The position numbers and the translations under genes are program-made. Below, piece after piece: positions 15,208 through 22,146 of a DNA stretch of 22,885 nt. The stretch covers positions 1 to 22,885 of IMG/VR virus record IMGVR_UViG_3300037507_002970; one strand, written 5' to 3'. A model generated the notes under the pieces. The model saw nothing but the letters and a program-made list of their open reading frames with translations. It made no database searches and was not told where the DNA came from. The stretch is from a virus. Position 1 is the first letter of the stretch. Each line of letters starts with the position of its first letter.

Positions 15208-17280
15208 TTACCGAGTATGCCGCTTAGCTTGCTGCTGCTCACGCCAGCTCACTTTTTGCTTGTGCTGCTTGACGGTTTGGCCTGGCAGGGCTGCACCTAG
15301 AAAACTGGCTGCCACGGCTGAACCCACCAGGCCGTCAAACCATTCATTGTCGCGGTTTGGCCTTAACTTCCATTCCAGCACCCGCCGGCCCGTTGACTCG
15401 CTGCTAGAGTCTATGGCGTACTCGCTGCTCAAATGGTCGGCTAGCATGGCGTGAGTGTCTGGGCGATCCCCGAACACCGTAATCCCTGTTTTGTCGTCGG
15501 TCGTCTTAATTCGCTGGCCAACTACGGTTTTCCACTGGTTCACATCGCAAATCAGGTGCCGCTGATTTCTCCGGCCCAGCTGCGTTTTCCAGCCTGGCCC
15601 TACTTTGTCGCTTGGCTCCCGTTTCCAGCTTTCAATAGGGGCTGTCGTCGCGCTAACGTATCTACCGTGCCAGGGCATCAGCCGGCCTGCGCCAAGTGTT
15701 CTGGCTACCTGATAAACGATGTCAGTGCTAGGTTGCCAGTTAGCATCAATCAGCAGTAGGTTAACGCTGGTCGTGCCGCGGGTCTGGTAGGCGTACTGCT
15801 TGCTCAGCAGTCGCTCGCTAATCTCGGTAACACCTGCCAGCAGTCCATGCTGTACCGTTGCTACGCCATAATGCTCTTGCAGCGTCTTTCTAATATCCTG
15901 CTTAGTAAAATACTGCCGCCCCTGCTCAGGCCAACTGCCGTAGTCCACCACATGCCCGCGCAATTGTTGATCCCAGGCAGCCACCAGGTAAAACAGGGCA
16001 TCCTGCTGAACGTCACAAAATGCGGTTAGCTGCTCGGCCCAGTCTGGCACAAATCCCCGCGGTATCCCGCTTAGCTTTTTGCCGATGTCGGCTGGCACTA
16101 GAGCAAAAGCGTTTTCTACATCCTGACTACGCGGGCTGTTTTGGTATTCACTTAAAAAAGCGTCCTCATCTTTGGCCCACAAATCCATCGCGTACTGGAT
16201 CGCGCTTACTTGGTCGGGTTCGTGCCGATATTCCCAGGCTACTTGACACCCCGCGTCGGCTGTTTCTCGGTTCGCTCGGTAGTAGTCGTTCAGCTGCTCT
16301 AGCGGCTGCTCTAGCCGGATTAGCTCGTTGCGTTTGTCCCTGTAGCCTCGCCACCAGTCCATATTGTCTGGCATCCGGTAAACCAGCTTCATTAGATCGC
16401 CGCGCCAATCTGGGTTTCGCTTGCGATCTAGCAGCCTGGCTGCTAGGTCATCTTGCTGAATTACCGTAACCGCCGCAAACGCTGCTAGCCGCTTTCTAGC
16501 CCCACCGAGTCCCAAAACCGCACGGCTTGTTGTGCGTTCTCGCTCAGCTGTGCTGTGAGCACTTTTGGCACTGCGTTCGGTCTGCGGGTCATCGAGCAGC
16601 ACCAGTTCAGGGCGTATCGTAGTACCGTCAGGTAGCTTGTCACTTAGCCCACGAATTGCGCCTGTGATGGATCGGCAATACAAACGCGCACTGCTGCTGG
16701 GCGCTCCTGGCACAGTCGGAAATACCAGCTCCTCCCGAGTCCAGCGTATTCTGGTTTGTTCACCATCGAGGGTTTGGCCGCCAGTTCTGTGGTTAATACC
16801 TTCCAGCCGCTGAATGGGGTAACACGCTTCAGGAAAGTCGCCGCTTAGGTTCTCATCGGCCTCGATGGTTATTTTGACGTTGTTGGCGATCTTAATACTG
16901 TCGGCCTTAGTCGCTGCCACTACTACGACAAACTTACAGTGGCCGTACAGGATAGCCCACAGCGTCGCCCCAGTAATCAGGGTTGTCTTGCCCTGCCGCC
17001 TGGGCATAGCGAGGGCGTACTGGCCACCGTGCAAAATAACGTCGCGCATCACCTCTATGGCGCGCAGATGGTCGTTTGACCACGGCAGGTTAAAAGTCTC
17101 TTTAAGGTACGTTTCCAAAAACAGCTTTAGGCTATCTTTGCATCTGGCCCGCCTGGCTGGATCTGCTACGGTTGGCAGCGGCCCTATCTCACGGCTACTT
17201 TGGGCTCGCTCTCGGCTGCGCCTAGCCATGTCCTCTTTATGCCGCTGATATTGCTCACTGGTTTTGTCAATCGTCGCCAC
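15208..17280 (-). CDS. Terminase large subunit, GpA-type
   Basis: This 690-residue protein is the DNA-packaging motor. The ATPase part has a Walker A-like AMPRRQGKTTL (residues 91-101) and a Walker B LVLLDD (226-231), with a coupling motif region further on. The nuclease part has acidic stretches FCDVQQD (421-427), LLIDANWQ (509-516) and DNEWFDGLVGSAVAA (644-658), in the positions expected for the RNase H-like nuclease of GpA-type terminases. The length suits the GpA group. It follows RusA with a 14-base overlap counted to its longest reading and precedes a zinc ribbon. No small terminase is coded next to it. Confidence 0.93.
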   Translation of the reverse strand: MATIDKTSEQYQRHKEDMARRSRERAQSSREIGPLPTVADPARRARCKDSLKLFLETYLKETFNLPWSNDHLRAIEVMRDVILHGGQYALAMPRRQGKTTLITGATLWAILYGHCKFVVVVAATKADSIKIANNVKITIEADENLSGDFPEACYPIQRLEGINHRTGGQTLDGEQTRIRWTREELVFPTVPGAPSSSARLYCRSITGAIRGLSDKLPDGTTIRPELVLLDDPQTERSAKSAHSTAERERTTSRAVLGLGGARKRLAAFAAVTVIQQDDLAARLLDRKRNPDWRGDLMKLVYRMPDNMDWWRGYRDKRNELIRLEQPLEQLNDYYRANRETADAGCQVAWEYRHEPDQVSAIQYAMDLWAKDEDAFLSEYQNSPRSQDVENAFALVPADIGKKLSGIPRGFVPDWAEQLTAFCDVQQDALFYLVAAWDQQLRGHVVDYGSWPEQGRQYFTKQDIRKTLQEHYGVATVQHGLLAGVTEISERLLSKQYAYQTRGTTSVNLLLIDANWQPSTDIVYQVARTLGAGRLMPWHGRYVSATTAPIESWKREPSDKVGPGWKTQLGRRNQRHLICDVNQWKTVVGQRIKTTDDKTGITVFGDRPDTHAMLADHLSSEYAIDSSSESTGRRVLEWKLRPNRDNEWFDGLVGSAVAASFLGAALPGQTVKQHKQKVSWREQQQAKRHTR

Positions 17281-17629
17281 TTATCACCTCGATTTCAATC
17301 ACCAGTTGCCCCAGCTTCATTACGTCGCCGCGCTTAATCGTTAGCTCATCTATCTGCTTGTCGTCTGCGTAAACGCCGGCTTTGGCGAGGGCATCAAGGG
17401 GCGCTTTGAGTAGGTTATCAAGGTCGCGCGCTCGCTGATCTGGCGGGTTAGCTGTGATGCTTACGCGCAGCTTGCCGGTCATCGGCCTGGGTGCGCCACG
17501 GTTGCAGGCAAACACGGCCAGCAGGGTATCAACTCGGTACTGCTTGCCCTTTGCGGTCAGGTAGCGGTATTTGTCGCGGCTGCCCCAGTAGTGATTGTTT
17601 GACGGGGGCCAGGGTAGAATTAGCTTCAT
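17267..17629 (-). CDS. rusA: RusA-like Holliday-junction resolvase
   Basis: This 120-residue endonuclease resolves branched DNA, which helps packaging after recombination-dependent replication. The hallmarks are LPWPPSNNHYWGSRDKYR at the N-terminus and the catalytic region ARDLDNLLKAPLDALAKAGV followed by YADDKQIDEL, with the paired Asp residues of RusA. I take the ATG at 17629, with AGGA 8 bases upstream and 4 bases after the previous stop; a longer start 9 codons earlier would overlap the upstream gene. It is coded directly upstream of the large terminase. Confidence 0.9.
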   Translation of the reverse strand: MKLILPWPPSNNHYWGSRDKYRYLTAKGKQYRVDTLLAVFACNRGAPRPMTGKLRVSITANPPDQRARDLDNLLKAPLDALAKAGVYADDKQIDELTIKRGDVMKLGQLVIEIEVISGDD

Positions 17630-17633
17630 GTTT

Positions 17634-17879
17634 CTAGTCCTGGTCGCTTTCATCACCTGGCATCTTTGGGCAGCCGCCTAAAACATCTGTTGACCTTGCT
17701 TTATATCCTCGCATAGCCCCAGAAAACGGTTTTTTGCGATCAATATGATTATCGTTTCTTATGCGAACACGCAGACACTTAAGACAAAATCTTCTGTCAG
17801 TTGTAACCGCCGGCTTGTGCTGGCAATCGACGCACCGCCCATCTGCCCTTGTCTCTGGTAAATTACTGCTTGTATTCAT
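17634..17879 (-). CDS. Small Cys4 putative zinc-binding protein
   Basis: This 81-residue protein starts at the ATG with AGGTGA 5 bases upstream, immediately after the exported-protein gene. It has CVDC near residue 16 and CLKC near residue 32, spaced like a zinc ribbon, then a basic region. An upstream extension of 45 codons would run through the neighbouring gene and is rejected. It could be a DNA- or RNA-binding protein, or a non-classical small terminase, but nothing proves either. Confidence 0.62.
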   Translation of the reverse strand: MNTSSNLPETRADGRCVDCQHKPAVTTDRRFCLKCLRVRIRNDNHIDRKKPFSGAMRGYKARSTDVLGGCPKMPGDESDQD

Positions 17880-17883
17880 GTTT

Positions 17884-18204
17884 TCACCTGTAATGCGCTG
17901 ACCAATAAACCTTGCCATTTCTTCCAATTGCAAACGCCCTTGCCACCATTCGATACTTTTTGCTAGTGCAGTGGCTCGGCCTGGCTGTCGAATTGCTGCT
18001 GCCCACGCCCGCAAATCTGCACCCTGGGGCGATGCCTAGTAGATGCCCAACAACGCCCCTGGCCGCTTGCAGCTCGGCCTCGCGTTTTGCAAAAACATAA
18101 GCAGCTTGGTCTGTAGCCACTTCGGCTGTGCCGGCCTGTTGGCCGAAACATTCGGTAGCAAACAGCCCCACGACAAATGCCAGGGCAATTAAAATCTTGT
18201 TCAT
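17884..18204 (-). CDS. Small exported protein, unknown function
   Basis: This 106-residue protein has a clear signal peptide (MNKILIALAFVVGLFATECFGQQ). I chose this ATG because AAGGAGG lies 7 bases upstream; the reading 11 codons longer has no such site. The mature part ends with a compact motif, GVGSSNSTARPSHC and then ARAFAIGRNGKVYWSAHYR, similar in style to a small secreted domain I recall from Planctomycetota. Lying among replication genes, it looks like an accessory gene that changes the infected cell's surface or periplasm. Superinfection exclusion is one possibility. Confidence 0.7.
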   Translation of the reverse strand: MNKILIALAFVVGLFATECFGQQAGTAEVATDQAAYVFAKREAELQAARGVVGHLLGIAPGCRFAGVGSSNSTARPSHCTSKKYRMVARAFAIGRNGKVYWSAHYR

Positions 18205-18668
18205 CACTCCACCTCCTTTGCGCACTGATAACACCATTCACTCCACTGCTCGCTTGTCATTTGGCCAGCTTTGTACTCCGGAATCCTGGTTAGGATTTTA
18301 TCGTAGGCCGCTTTCATGCTGCCAGCAAACCTCGGTAAAGGCTTATAGGCAGCCCTGCGAGCTTTTACGTCTGCTGACACCTCCTGGGCTGCTTGCTCGC
18401 GTCTATGCCGCAAATTTGCTAATTCCCTGGCATTTGCTGCCAGTCGGTAAATTGTCTGGTCACGTTCAAACCCAGCGGGCGGCTTTTGCTTGCCAGTTGC
18501 CCAGGCATCCAGTACGGCCAAGGCGTCAACGTAGTCAACAGCCCCGAGAGCATCCATCCACGCTTTGCCGGTCGCGTTGCGGCTGGGCAGTTCGTCAAAC
18601 CAGGTTTTAAAACTTGGAAACAGGACAAAAACTCGGTTAATCAGTTTGGTTGTTTCGTCGCGATTCAT
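18204..18668 (-). CDS. G39P-like helicase loader/replication protein (candidate)
   Basis: This 154-residue protein begins ETTKLINRVFVLFPSFKTWF, then has TGKAWMDALGAVDYVDALAV and KQKPPAGFERDQTIYRLAAN. That order (helix, W-x-x-L-x-x-x-x-Y pattern, then a K-x-P-P stretch) resembles the N-domain of SPP1 G39P-type helicase loaders. The C-terminal half is basic and charged, ending with a Cys pair (WCYQC). It follows the initiator with a TAATG overlap, the normal place of a loader. The call is moderate. Confidence 0.65.
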   Translation of the reverse strand: MNRDETTKLINRVFVLFPSFKTWFDELPSRNATGKAWMDALGAVDYVDALAVLDAWATGKQKPPAGFERDQTIYRLAANARELANLRHRREQAAQEVSADVKARRAAYKPLPRFAGSMKAAYDKILTRIPEYKAGQMTSEQWSEWCYQCAKEVE

Positions 18669-19423
18669 TAGAAACCTAGCTCCTCGGTAAATGATTCATG
18701 CTTCCTCACGCTGCGTTGCCAAGTTGGATCGGGCGCAGATAGCCCTTGCCAGCCTTTGGCGATAGTGTAGTTAATCCACTCCGTTGCCACTTCTGGCCCC
18801 AGCTTGGCCAGCTGCGCCAGTTGTCTGGTTGCTGATGTCGGTTTAAGTGGTTTCTTGATTTCGACTCTGTGGCGTAGCCAGTCTTTCCAGGCGACTTGAA
18901 AGGCTTCTGTGTTTAGGCTTTCACTAAACTCGTACAGAACTCCCATTTCCCCCACAGGGGGTTTAGGGGGTGTATTGTTATTCTTATCTTCTCTTCTCTT
19001 CTCTTCTCTAGGTAACGCTGCACTAACGCTGAGTGCGTTACCTTTGCGTTTCTCATGCGTTACCTGTTGCGTTACCTTTTCGTTACTTGCCTTATGTTCG
19101 GCCACTCTTTTTGAGGTTAAAGCCCTCTTTTTAGCGGTGCTTCCGTTATGCCTATCAAAGTTTGGCAAAGATATTTGATTTTCTAATTCAATCATCCAGC
19201 CGGCTTCAATCATCGCGTCGCAAAATCCGGTAACGCTCAATTTGCGATCCAGTAACGCTTTGGTAACGCTCGGTGCGTTACCGTCCTGCGTTTGCTCATC
19301 GAACCACGCCCAGACCCTCAGTAGCTTTCCAACTACAGCATCTGGGTCGATACTCAGTCTCTGTGCGATCTGCCACACCTCCGGCTTATCGCTTGTGCAA
19401 ATCTCAAATTTAATCCATGCCAT
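18668..19423 (-). CDS. Phage replication initiator (O-like)
   Basis: This 251-residue protein opens with a winged-helix-like N-domain: AWIKFEICTSDKPEVWQIAQ, VVGKLLRVWAWFDEQTQDGN and FCDAMIEAGWMIELENQISL, which is common in phage replication proteins. A basic, low-complexity linker follows (residues 90-150: many Lys, Arg, Glu, Asn), then a C-domain (LNTEAFQVAWKDWLRHRVEI, QLAQLAKLGPEVATEWINYT). As in the lambda O gene, the linker-coding part and the front of the gene hold clustered short repeats that may be the origin. A weak GGAG lies 11 bases upstream, right after a terminator hairpin. Confidence 0.83.
   Translation of the reverse strand: MAWIKFEICTSDKPEVWQIAQRLSIDPDAVVGKLLRVWAWFDEQTQDGNAPSVTKALLDRKLSVTGFCDAMIEAGWMIELENQISLPNFDRHNGSTAKKRALTSKRVAEHKASNEKVTQQVTHEKRKGNALSVSAALPREEKRREDKNNNTPPKPPVGEMGVLYEFSESLNTEAFQVAWKDWLRHRVEIKKPLKPTSATRQLAQLAKLGPEVATEWINYTIAKGWQGLSAPDPTWQRSVRKHESFTEELGF
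18991..19010. repeat. 5-bp tandem repeat beside an AT-rich stretch
   Basis: Three copies of CTCTT are followed by CTCTA, forming a purine/pyrimidine-asymmetric tract inside the initiator gene. The bases on its left (about 18970-18990) are AT-rich. Together they sit at the edge of the GGTAACGC repeat cluster and could be the duplex-unwinding element of an origin. Confidence 0.6.
19011..19282. other. Candidate replication origin: GGTAACGC repeat cluster
   Basis: The octamer GGTAACGC or its complement GCGTTACC occurs at 19011-19018, 19035-19042, 19057-19064, 19069-19076, 19229-19236, 19262-19269 and 19275-19282. Near-copies lie at 19023-19029, 19081-19086 and 19252-19258. The pair 19262-19269/19275-19282 forms a perfect inverted repeat with a 5-base spacer. 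The repeats lie in two groups inside the initiator gene, beside an AT-rich stretch, as lambda-type origins do. Confidence 0.7.
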
Positions 19424-19438
19424 TTGTATGGCTCCAAC

Positions 19439-19480
19439 AAAAAACCGCCTGCCCAGGCTACCAGACCCAGACAGACGGTT
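19439..19480 (-). terminator. Intrinsic terminator or attenuator before the replication gene
   Basis: On the minus strand a 9-bp stem (arms 19472-19480 and 19443-19451, with one G-U pair) is followed by a run of six T ending at 19439. The replication gene's ATG is only 15 bases beyond, with its GGAG site just after the U-tract, so there is no room for a promoter. This suggests a conditional terminator in the leader. Confidence 0.72.
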
Positions 19481-19506
19481 CAGCGGTTTCCCGCGTTGTT
19501 GTTACT

Positions 19507-19530
19507 ATAGCCTGCTGGTAGTCAGGCTAT
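19507..19530 (-). promoter_or_regulatory. Hairpin at the csrA stop codon with alternative pairing partners
   Basis: The perfect inverted repeat ATAGCCTG/CAGGCTAT (19507-19514 and 19523-19530, 8-base loop) covers the csrA stop codon and has no T-run. One arm can also pair with a second copy of its partner at 19454-19460, in the loop of the terminator downstream. Confidence 0.6.
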
Positions 19531-19715
19531 TCCGTTTTACCACCTTCACTGTCGCTTTGCAAATTCACAATCTCCTGTCGCAACACCTTAACCTCCTTTG
19601 GTGCTTCAATAGCGATCCTTACCGTATTGCCTTTAATCGACACCACTTCAACAGCAATGCGATCCCCGACAATGATCCGCTCCCGTACCTTGCGGCTTAA
19701 CACTAGCTTGCCCAT
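19527..19715 (-). CDS. csrA: Phage-encoded CsrA (RsmA) translational regulator
   Basis: This 62-residue protein matches CsrA along its whole length: GKLVLSRKVRERIIVGDRIA at the N-terminus, then VEVVSIKGNTVRIAIEAPKE, and VKVLRQEI near residues 42-49, including the conserved Arg before x-E-I that binds GGA in RNA. CsrA forms a dimer that binds GGA hairpins near ribosome binding sites. Its own leader has such a site over the ribosome binding site. It is coded in the early region, just upstream of the replication gene. It could reprogram host metabolism or time phage translation. The length is typical of the family. Confidence 0.95.
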   Translation of the reverse strand: MGKLVLSRKVRERIIVGDRIAVEVVSIKGNTVRIAIEAPKEVKVLRQEIVNLQSDSEGGKTE

Positions 19716-20316: not shown

Positions 20317-20649
20317 CTATTTAGGGTTAAACTCGCCGCACCAATCAGTTGGCACCACCCAGGGCCACACTGCATCCTCGCCACCTTCCTCACGCACTGG
20401 CGGGTTTTTTCTGCACTGCCCTACGCCTGGCTCAAAATCGTCATAAAACCGACAAGATTCACAGGCTCTCACAGGCTCGGCCTTCACAATCTCTAGCCAA
20501 TGGTCGTCTAGTGAAACAACGTCTCGCAGTTCAGTTAAATTGCGAATTAAGAACGCGCCGTCTGATCTAATAATCACATCGTCGTCTATGTCCAAACTAG
20601 CCTTATCTTCGCTACCTGGAAATCGTTCTGAAAATTTAACCCACCTCAT
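20317..20649 (-). CDS. DUF551-like protein with Cys cluster
   Basis: This 110-residue protein starts like DUF551 proteins (RWVKFSERFPGSEDK, then DDDVIIRSDG), with a short beta domain. The C-terminal half has the small phage Cys motif: CESCRFYDDF, then GQCRKNPP, WPWVVPTDWCGEF, four Cys in all, which probably bind a metal. Such proteins are common in phage early regions; their role is unknown. The start overlaps the recT stop by 14 bases. Confidence 0.75.
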   Translation of the reverse strand: MRWVKFSERFPGSEDKASLDIDDDVIIRSDGAFLIRNLTELRDVVSLDDHWLEIVKAEPVRACESCRFYDDFEPGVGQCRKNPPVREEGGEDAVWPWVVPTDWCGEFNPK

Positions 20650-21262
20650 CTATCAAATCCTCCAATCTTTTTGGTGCTGCCTGCACAGGCTCAATGTCTA
20701 CAACTTCGTCCTCGGCCTGCATCCCCAGCAGCAGCTCGGGGCAATGCTGTCGGGCAAAAAAACTAGCTGATCTGTATATCAGCATCTGGTCGGGCATGGT
20801 CTTCCACTTGCTGCCTTCTTTGTGATACCAGCCCTCAGCCTTAGCCATGGCCAGGTCAACAATGGTTCCCTCAATACGCTCGCCAGTAGCTCGATCCTTG
20901 GTCACGACGCGGCAGCCATAACTATCCTGGCCCCGAGTGCCACTGAACACATAGGTAAGGCGCTCAAACTGACGGCTGTTGTTGATTAGGGCGATTAAAA
21001 ACTTAGCTTCCCATGCTGGCTTGCCGTAAATAATGGCCACGTTTTGCATCACCATAGTTGGATCAAAACCAAACCTTCGGGCTAAATTCATGGCTATGAC
21101 GCAGTTTGGCACGTTGCCTTTAAATGCCTTTGGGGCAAAATCGCTACTGGCTAGTAGCTTGGCTTCGCGCTGGGCAAATTCAAACGCGTCTTTCAAATGG
21201 GCTAGCTGCCTTTCGGCCCTTTCTAGCGGCTCGGTCTGCTGTTGTTCAATTAGTTCACTCAT
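20636..21262 (-). CDS. recT: RecT-family single-strand annealing protein
   Basis: This 208-residue protein anneals single-stranded DNA in phage recombination. The centre is characteristic of RecT-type proteins: PNCVIAMNLARRFGFDPTMV, then NVAIIYGKPAWEAKFLIALI and NSRQFERLTYVF, with the aromatic KAEGWYHKEGSKWKTMPDQM and LIYRSASFFARQHCPELLLG further on. It partners with the exonuclease coded upstream (ATGA overlap), forming the usual YqaJ-RecT pair. The acidic C-terminal tail (DIEPVQAAPKRLEDLIDEVG) is similar in style to tails that bind host SSB or regulate activity. Confidence 0.88.
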   Translation of the reverse strand: MSELIEQQQTEPLERAERQLAHLKDAFEFAQREAKLLASSDFAPKAFKGNVPNCVIAMNLARRFGFDPTMVMQNVAIIYGKPAWEAKFLIALINNSRQFERLTYVFSGTRGQDSYGCRVVTKDRATGERIEGTIVDLAMAKAEGWYHKEGSKWKTMPDQMLIYRSASFFARQHCPELLLGMQAEDEVVDIEPVQAAPKRLEDLIDEVG

Positions 21263-22146
21263 TTAGGCTGGCTCCTGCGAAAAACTCGATAAGTAGACTC
21301 CTCGACAACATAGCTTTTACGCGTCTGCTGCTTGTAGCTCAGCTTGACGCCGTTAGGCAGCTCGACCAGCTCCGCCCCGCCCATCAGTTGCAGCAGCTGG
21401 TTTTCTAGGTAACGCTTTTTGGTTTCTAGGTCGCTCAGCGTATCCTTGATCTGCGTTAGCTGCTGATCCAGTTCCATGGCAGATATGCCCTGCTCGTAAC
21501 CCATGGGCATGGCCTCGGGCGTCCACTTAAACATCGTGCCGATAGCTCGCCTGGCCGACTCGCTGGCGTCCACAGGTGGCGGCTGGTGATTCAGTAGGTT
21601 TTCCCAGAATAGCTGCTCACGCTGCACCATAAATTGCTGGAAACGCTCGTTAGGCTCAACTTCGTGAATGACCAAACGCTGGCCACCAATCAGGATCGCC
21701 AAATAGGCTCGGCTGGCACCTGTAACGCACAGCTCATGCTGTACCTGCACCTGGTAATTCAGCGGCACTTCCTCGGCTGCGTCGCGGTTGCTGGTAGTCT
21801 TGATCTGTACAATCTGCTCACCATCATCGAGCAAAGCATCGGGCGTACAGCCCTGCCAGTTGCGCTCGGGGTGCCGAATGATCGCTGACTGATCCCACAG
21901 CTCTACAGGCCGGCCCAGGCGATCTGCCACCTCGGTAGCTATCACTGGCTCCAGCTTTTGACCCCACAGCATGGCCTCGCTGGCCTGTACTGGCTCGAGC
22001 AGTCCTAGCTTACGGGCATAAACTTCTATAGCCGACGTATACGGGCAAGCGCCCATGATCCCAGCAGCATCGCTGCCGCCAATGTAGGTCGCGCGGTTAG
22101 CGGCCCACGCCTCGCGGCTACCAAATGTTTCGACAATTCCCTGCAT
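21259..22146 (-). CDS. YqaJ-family viral recombinase/exonuclease
   Basis: This 295-residue protein has the YqaJ (lambda exonuclease-type) core: IGGSDAAGIMGACPY (residues 22-36), WGQKLEP with Glu66, CTPDALL with Asp103, VQIKTTS (113-119) and YQVQVQHELCVTG (131-143). It would digest one strand of duplex DNA and hand it to RecT. The usual catalytic Glu-x-Lys is here Gln114-x-Lys116, an oddity. The C-terminal 90 residues form a helical extension with coiled-coil character (QLTQIKDTLSDLETKKRYLE). A fair ribosome binding site (AAGG) precedes the ATG. Confidence 0.9.
   Translation of the reverse strand: MQGIVETFGSREAWAANRATYIGGSDAAGIMGACPYTSAIEVYARKLGLLEPVQASEAMLWGQKLEPVIATEVADRLGRPVELWDQSAIIRHPERNWQGCTPDALLDDGEQIVQIKTTSNRDAAEEVPLNYQVQVQHELCVTGASRAYLAILIGGQRLVIHEVEPNERFQQFMVQREQLFWENLLNHQPPPVDASESARRAIGTMFKWTPEAMPMGYEQGISAMELDQQLTQIKDTLSDLETKKRYLENQLLQLMGGAELVELPNGVKLSYKQQTRKSYVVEESTYRVFRRSQPK

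Follow-up and report, generated by a model that had tools for sequence, protein, structure and literature searches.

Does the gene for a phage replication initiator also contain the origin at which that initiator acts? The question is raised by a locus in IMG/VR virus record IMGVR_UViG_3300037507_002970, whose positions 1 to 22,885, analyzed here in full, are referred to as the window. An open reading frame on the minus strand (18668–19423) encodes a predicted replication initiator, P0001. The initial annotation proposed an origin inside this frame, made up of seven exact and three near copies of an octamer, an 8-5-8 inverted repeat, a 5-bp tandem repeat, and an AT-rich stretch. All of these elements were located in the frame, with the octamers at 19011–19282. 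Judging from sequence, we put the probability that the origin of replication of this phage lies within the coding sequence of its initiator at roughly 0.87. This reading draws its support from family-wide conservation at the DNA level, class-specific iterons, an adjoining purine tract, and helicase or helicase-loader genes downstream in relatives.

The initiator and the sites in its gene

P0001 gives a full-domain match to the phrog_2509 “replication initiation protein” profile (residues 3–165, E = 3e-61), and no Pfam family covers it. An AlphaFold model based on 68 homologues, with a mean predicted local distance difference test (pLDDT) score of 82, predicts a winged-helix-like domain (residues 1–93), a long basic helix (95–125), a disordered linker (126–168), and a helical C-terminal domain. 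Searching solved structures with the sequence returned no match, and a Foldseek comparison of the model with the PDB gave none below E = 0.001. The features of the gene are the following.

18668..19423, minus strand: initiator gene (P0001, 251 amino acids, 756 bp), from the phrog_2509 profile match and the AlphaFold model
19145..19423, minus strand: winged-helix N-terminal domain, codons 1–93 (predicted model; weak winged-helix matches, Z 5.6)
18920..19048, minus strand: disordered linker, codons 126–168 (pLDDT mostly about 50)
18680..18907, minus strand: C-terminal helical domain, codons 173–248 (predicted model)
19229..19282: iteron cluster 1, within the winged-helix coding sequence (octamers 19275-, 19262+, and 19229+, near copy 19251+)
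19262..19282: perfect 8-5-8 inverted repeat, part of cluster 1
19011..19086: iteron cluster 2, where the long helix ends and the linker starts
18979..19010, minus strand: purine tract TAGAGAAGAGAAGAGAAGAGAAGATAAGAATA, immediately past the last iteron, proposed unwinding element
18949..18970, coding strand: CCCCC-TAAA-CCCCC-TGT-GGGGG element, possible hairpin

The remaining exact copies of the octamer GGTAACGC are at 19011+, 19035-, 19057-, and 19069-. The near copy at 19251+, AGTAACGC, has one mismatch, and ACTAACGC (19022–19029) and AGTAACGA (19079–19086) have two each. Counted from the start of the gene, GTAACG cores are found at nucleotides (nt) 143+, 156-, 167-, and 189- in cluster 1 and at 338+, 349+, 361+, 383+, and 407- in cluster 2. 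The gap between the two groups is about 145–150 bp, close to the 145 bases noted initially. The inverted repeat folds with −8.9 kcal/mol (z −4.5), and only about one-third of relatives have an inverted pair at this position. The tandem repeat (TCTCT on the plus strand; GAAGA-type purines on the coding strand) corresponds to 18979–19010 and adjoins the AT-rich stretch. Three elements fall in the linker codons: the last part of cluster 2, the purine tract, and the C/G element, the last of which on its own folds no better than shuffled sequences.

Equal frequency of the octamer elsewhere, named at the outset as a finding that would speak against an origin, is excluded for this contig: there are seven copies in the gene and four in the rest of the contig, a 51-fold difference in density (Poisson 1.6e-10). 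For the GTAACG core, the numbers are 9 and 11, respectively (24-fold, Poisson 2.9e-10). Shuffling of synonymous codons within the gene left on average 0.55 octamers (maximum 4) and 1.1 cores (maximum 5), and none of 5000 shuffles reached the observed seven octamers and nine cores, in agreement with the original claim that the motif is too dense for chance.

Conservation and iteron classes among homologues

Homologues were collected mostly with peptide patterns drawn from parts of the protein not encoded by iterons, and a few came from a protein search of annotated phages. The non-redundant set comprised at first 118 homologues, whose proteins are only about 30–65% identical to P0001 and whose hosts belong to Pseudomonadota, Planctomycetota, Verrucomicrobiota, and other groups, and it comprised 208 after divergent relatives had been added. 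Most of the 208 genes have two groups of sites, one in the winged-helix coding sequence and the other close to the linker. At least three GTAACG cores were found in 100 of the 118, for the most part as two clusters (gene nt ~143–207 and 338–430), and the 113 genes of adequate length contain 517 cores, compared with 114 ± 9 after synonymous shuffling.

Sorted by iteron, the 208 genes comprise 110 of class A (GTAACGC), 26 of class B (GTCACGC), and 49 of class C (GTCCGC), whereas 23 have no clear class. Each class is enriched in its own core relative to shuffled genes (A, GTAACG, 583 versus 121 ± 11; B, GTCACG, 173 versus 41 ± 5; C, GTCCGC, 356 versus 88 ± 10); because classes B and C were defined and tested on the same data, their independent check is the spacing lattice described below, which was not among the class-defining criteria. 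Iterons of foreign classes occur at expectation or lower. Some homologues without a class contain other repeated cores (CTAACG in L073, GTAGACG in L079), possibly representing further iteron classes.

The cores are arranged on a lattice, with 13 bp from a plus to a minus site, 12 bp between plus sites, and 11 bp between minus sites. Minus-to-plus spacings are rare, which means that each cluster reads inward, that is, convergently. Because spacings of 11 and 13 bp shift the reading frame, the motif is translated in different frames, as GNA, VT, or ALP. A core is present at gene nt 149+ in 94 of the 110 class A genes, and codon choice at the iterons is nearly invariant: GGT in 94/94 genes (background 23%), TTA for leucine in 82/82 (background 10%), and GTT in 83/84 (background 32%). 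In GC-rich genes, TTA is used in 36/36 cases, whereas 7% of the other leucine codons are TTA. Classes B and C follow the same 13/11-bp lattice, and cluster 1 of class C, although shifted to nt 55–101, is still within the winged-helix coding region. Enrichment only in a gene's own class, on one shared lattice, fits a binder that is self-encoded.

The column that best discriminates classes A and B is residue 49, which is asparagine in class A (GGT-AAC) and histidine in class B (GGT-CAC). A tree with weak resolution requires about 10 switches between A and B, at least four of them on well-supported branches. Across the four supported independent pairs, residues 103 and 107 almost always track the class, a link that is suggestive but below significance because there are only four such pairs. 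These data raise the idea that the origins of this family are bipartite and self-contained, with origin DNA and initiator co-evolving inside a single gene. On this view, iterons prescribe residues of the initiator's DNA-binding domain, the entire array has switched iterons several times, and residues 103–110 of the basic helix follow these switches and set specificity. We see the odds for this extended proposal as about even.

In all three classes, a purine run with a median length of 20–25 nt starts 1–2 nt past the last iteron. Arginine is encoded by AGA in 77–89% of cases within this tract and in 5–11% elsewhere in the same genes. Past the tract, 23/208 homologues (e.g., L008, L009, L012, L022, L023, L093, L095, and L097) have a CCCCC-CCCCC-GGGGG element. 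A peptide resembling its product, PPLNPPRG, also occurs in Escherichia coli K-12 ydaU (L171:6120-6977), whose N-terminal domain is unrelated. Stems of at least 6 bp with a 4-nt loop have a density of 2.19 per kb after the purine tract versus 0.45 outside the gene, and perfect hairpins in L067, L123, L194, L304, L311, and L329 have unrelated stems and a common TAAC loop. We regard both the C/G element and the hairpin as leads only; a hairpin is missing from most genes, and its excess over controls taken inside the gene is modest.

The gene that follows the initiator gene in relatives can encode DnaB, an IstB/DnaC-type ATPase, or lambda P, and in 178/200 loci the next open frame overlaps or is at most 20 bp away. 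In the window, this position is taken as follows.

18204..18668, minus strand: next gene, overlapping the initiator gene by 1 bp (weak match to the phrog_2289 helicase-loader profile, E = 0.018)

As to the source of the window, a metagenome-assembled genome of Pirellulaceae (L027) holds the closest cellular relative of its initiator and other Planctomycetota also carry homologues (L053, L063), which hints at a planctomycete host. Two circular “plasmid” records, L332 (NC_015459) and L333 (CP088505), resemble phage genomes and each carry a copy of the iteron-bearing initiator gene, which favors the origin reading only weakly; in NC_015459 no second replication initiator is annotated beside this homologue.

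The proposed mechanism and its alternatives

In the proposed mechanism, the winged helix of the initiator and the basic helix behind it would bind the octamer sites, which are spaced by about a helical turn (11–13 bp) in two convergent clusters, one in the codons of the DNA-binding domain and the other near and in those of the linker. The assembled complex, possibly joining both clusters by looping, could strain the adjacent A-rich purine tract and cause it to open. The C-terminal domain, our candidate for the contact with the helicase or its loader, may then pass the open strands to that partner, the product of the next gene.

Several observations weigh against an origin at this site. The GC skew of the contig has no turning point there, although skew is uninformative here because all main genes point one way. 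The next gene in the window resembles a loader only weakly, and among the contig genes scanned none was recognized as DnaB. In addition, the winged-helix assignment of P0001 is based on a structure prediction whose PDB matches are weak, 23 of the 208 homologues fit no clear iteron class, and the enrichment of classes B and C shares its data with their definition.

The alternative that survives best, though still unlikely, is autoregulation: the clusters would be operators through which the initiator blocks transcription of its own gene, with replication starting elsewhere. A cognate site within the gene would likewise yield class-specific iterons. However, the sites lie 143–412 nt into the gene rather than at a promoter, and an operator requires neither two clusters nor a purine tract, whereas a codon-locked tract adjoins the sites in all three classes. 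The helicase and loader genes downstream in relatives also argue for an origin, with which autoregulation could coexist.

It is considerably less probable that the inverted repeats act in mRNA, as hairpins controlling translation or termination. The strong folding of the 8-5-8 repeat would suit such a role, but the 149+/162- pair is present in only about one-third of class A genes, lattice sites of single orientation are kept, and hairpins have no need of an 11-bp direct spacing. Slimmer still is the chance that the motif is a site for a host factor, in favor of which there is repetition alone: the octamer is common to phages and prophages from several phyla, and it varies with the branch of the initiator. 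Least credible is that the repeats are a by-product of the conserved protein motifs GNA, SVT, ALP, and EEKRREE, for although GNA and SVT lie within the conserved N-terminal domain, the GGT and TTA codons are fixed far above background, the frames vary among sites, the peptide varies with iteron class, and the shuffling tests, in which the motif is lost, already contradict it.

Other genes around the initiator gene are worth recording. A CsrA homologue (PF02599, E = 4.7e-19; 19527–19715, minus strand) is directly upstream, and between the two genes, about 19 nt before the ATG, there is a strong terminator-like hairpin with 17 pairs and a T-run (19442–19481, minus strand), a possible attenuator of initiator expression. 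Genes for a RecT-like annealing protein (20636–21262, minus strand), a YqaJ/RecE-like exonuclease (21259–22146, minus strand), and a RusA resolvase (17267–17656) form a recombination module around the initiator gene.

Comparison with known origins

Searches of an open-access library on the motif, ydaU/ydaV, epsilon15, and an origin for initiators of the phrog_2509 type returned no description of such an origin, and none of a second cluster in the codons of a DNA-binding domain, of iteron changes that prescribe residues (N49 to H), or of conservation across phyla. The analysis takes an annotation-level guess to a precise predicted origin map for a large, apparently uncharacterized initiator family that covers phages of E. 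coli, Salmonella, Pseudomonas, Xanthomonas, Planctomycetes, and Akkermansia-type hosts. The double use of this DNA, for coding and as putative origin sites, is kept from E. coli and Pseudomonas phages and prophages to Planctomycetes, and regulatory DNA here appears to fix codons and amino acids of the very protein proposed to read it. A single gene suffices to read the site, the putative unwinding tract, and the cognate protein, and the three iteron classes amount to a natural swap experiment on initiator–origin specificity.

Direct homologues of P0001 with their own iteron sets are ydaU of the E. coli phage Rac (strain 442/2) and the replication protein of epsilon15; the latter and its relatives differ in having GTCCGC iterons and the shifted cluster 1 of class C. 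The oriJ of E. coli K-12 was considered and is not equated with the origin proposed here, since K-12 ydaU has another N-terminal domain (DUF1376) and no such iterons.

Origins inside initiator genes are already known from lambda O (PMC7466680, PMC6022878, PMC5043065), RepA_N plasmids (PMC5703833), and RepC (PMC3155836). The likeness to lambda O suggested in the initial annotation holds for the plan. The lambda iterons are mid-gene (O nt 349–433), at an equal distance from the start codon as here, and the helicase-loader gene comes next (PMC7466680, PMC5043065); the iterons are followed by an A-rich purine tract, AAAAGAAAAAAGAAAAGA, and then by the inverted repeat GTCAGAG/CTCTGAC. The likeness does not extend to the sites, which in lambda are 18-bp hyphenated inverted repeats and here are half-sites of 6–8 bp on an 11–13-bp lattice, which in P0001's gene form a complete palindrome just once, nor to the second cluster in winged helix-turn-helix (wHTH) codons, which lambda lacks. 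As a positive control, our scan recovered the lambda iterons. No homology was detected between P0001 and the lambda O N-terminal domain, and the phrog_678 profile, which lambda O matches from residue 1, matches P0001 only at residues 103–233.

The RepA_N initiator pSK41 Rep has a wHTH N-terminal domain, a linker encoded by the origin, and a helical C-terminal domain, with central Rep boxes in rep (PMC5703833), and hence shares with P0001 the three-part layout with sites inside the gene. The model of P0001 matches pSK41 Rep weakly (Z 5.4–5.5 over 79 residues), tied with unrelated winged helices, and Pfam RepA_N is not listed for P0001 at E values up to 1. RepA_N genes also differ in that their four Rep boxes are confined to mid-gene and in that they belong to Gram-positive plasmids. 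By the tests run, P0001 belongs to neither the lambda O nor the RepA_N family. In repABC plasmids, the origin is likewise inside the initiator coding sequence, adjoining an A+T-rich region, and silent changes abolish replication; unlike in the gene of P0001, iterons were not found in repC (PMC3155836). Hence, the plan of an origin within the initiator gene is known, whereas the design of the sites and the extra cluster in the DNA-binding-domain codons, as predicted here, differ from the known systems.
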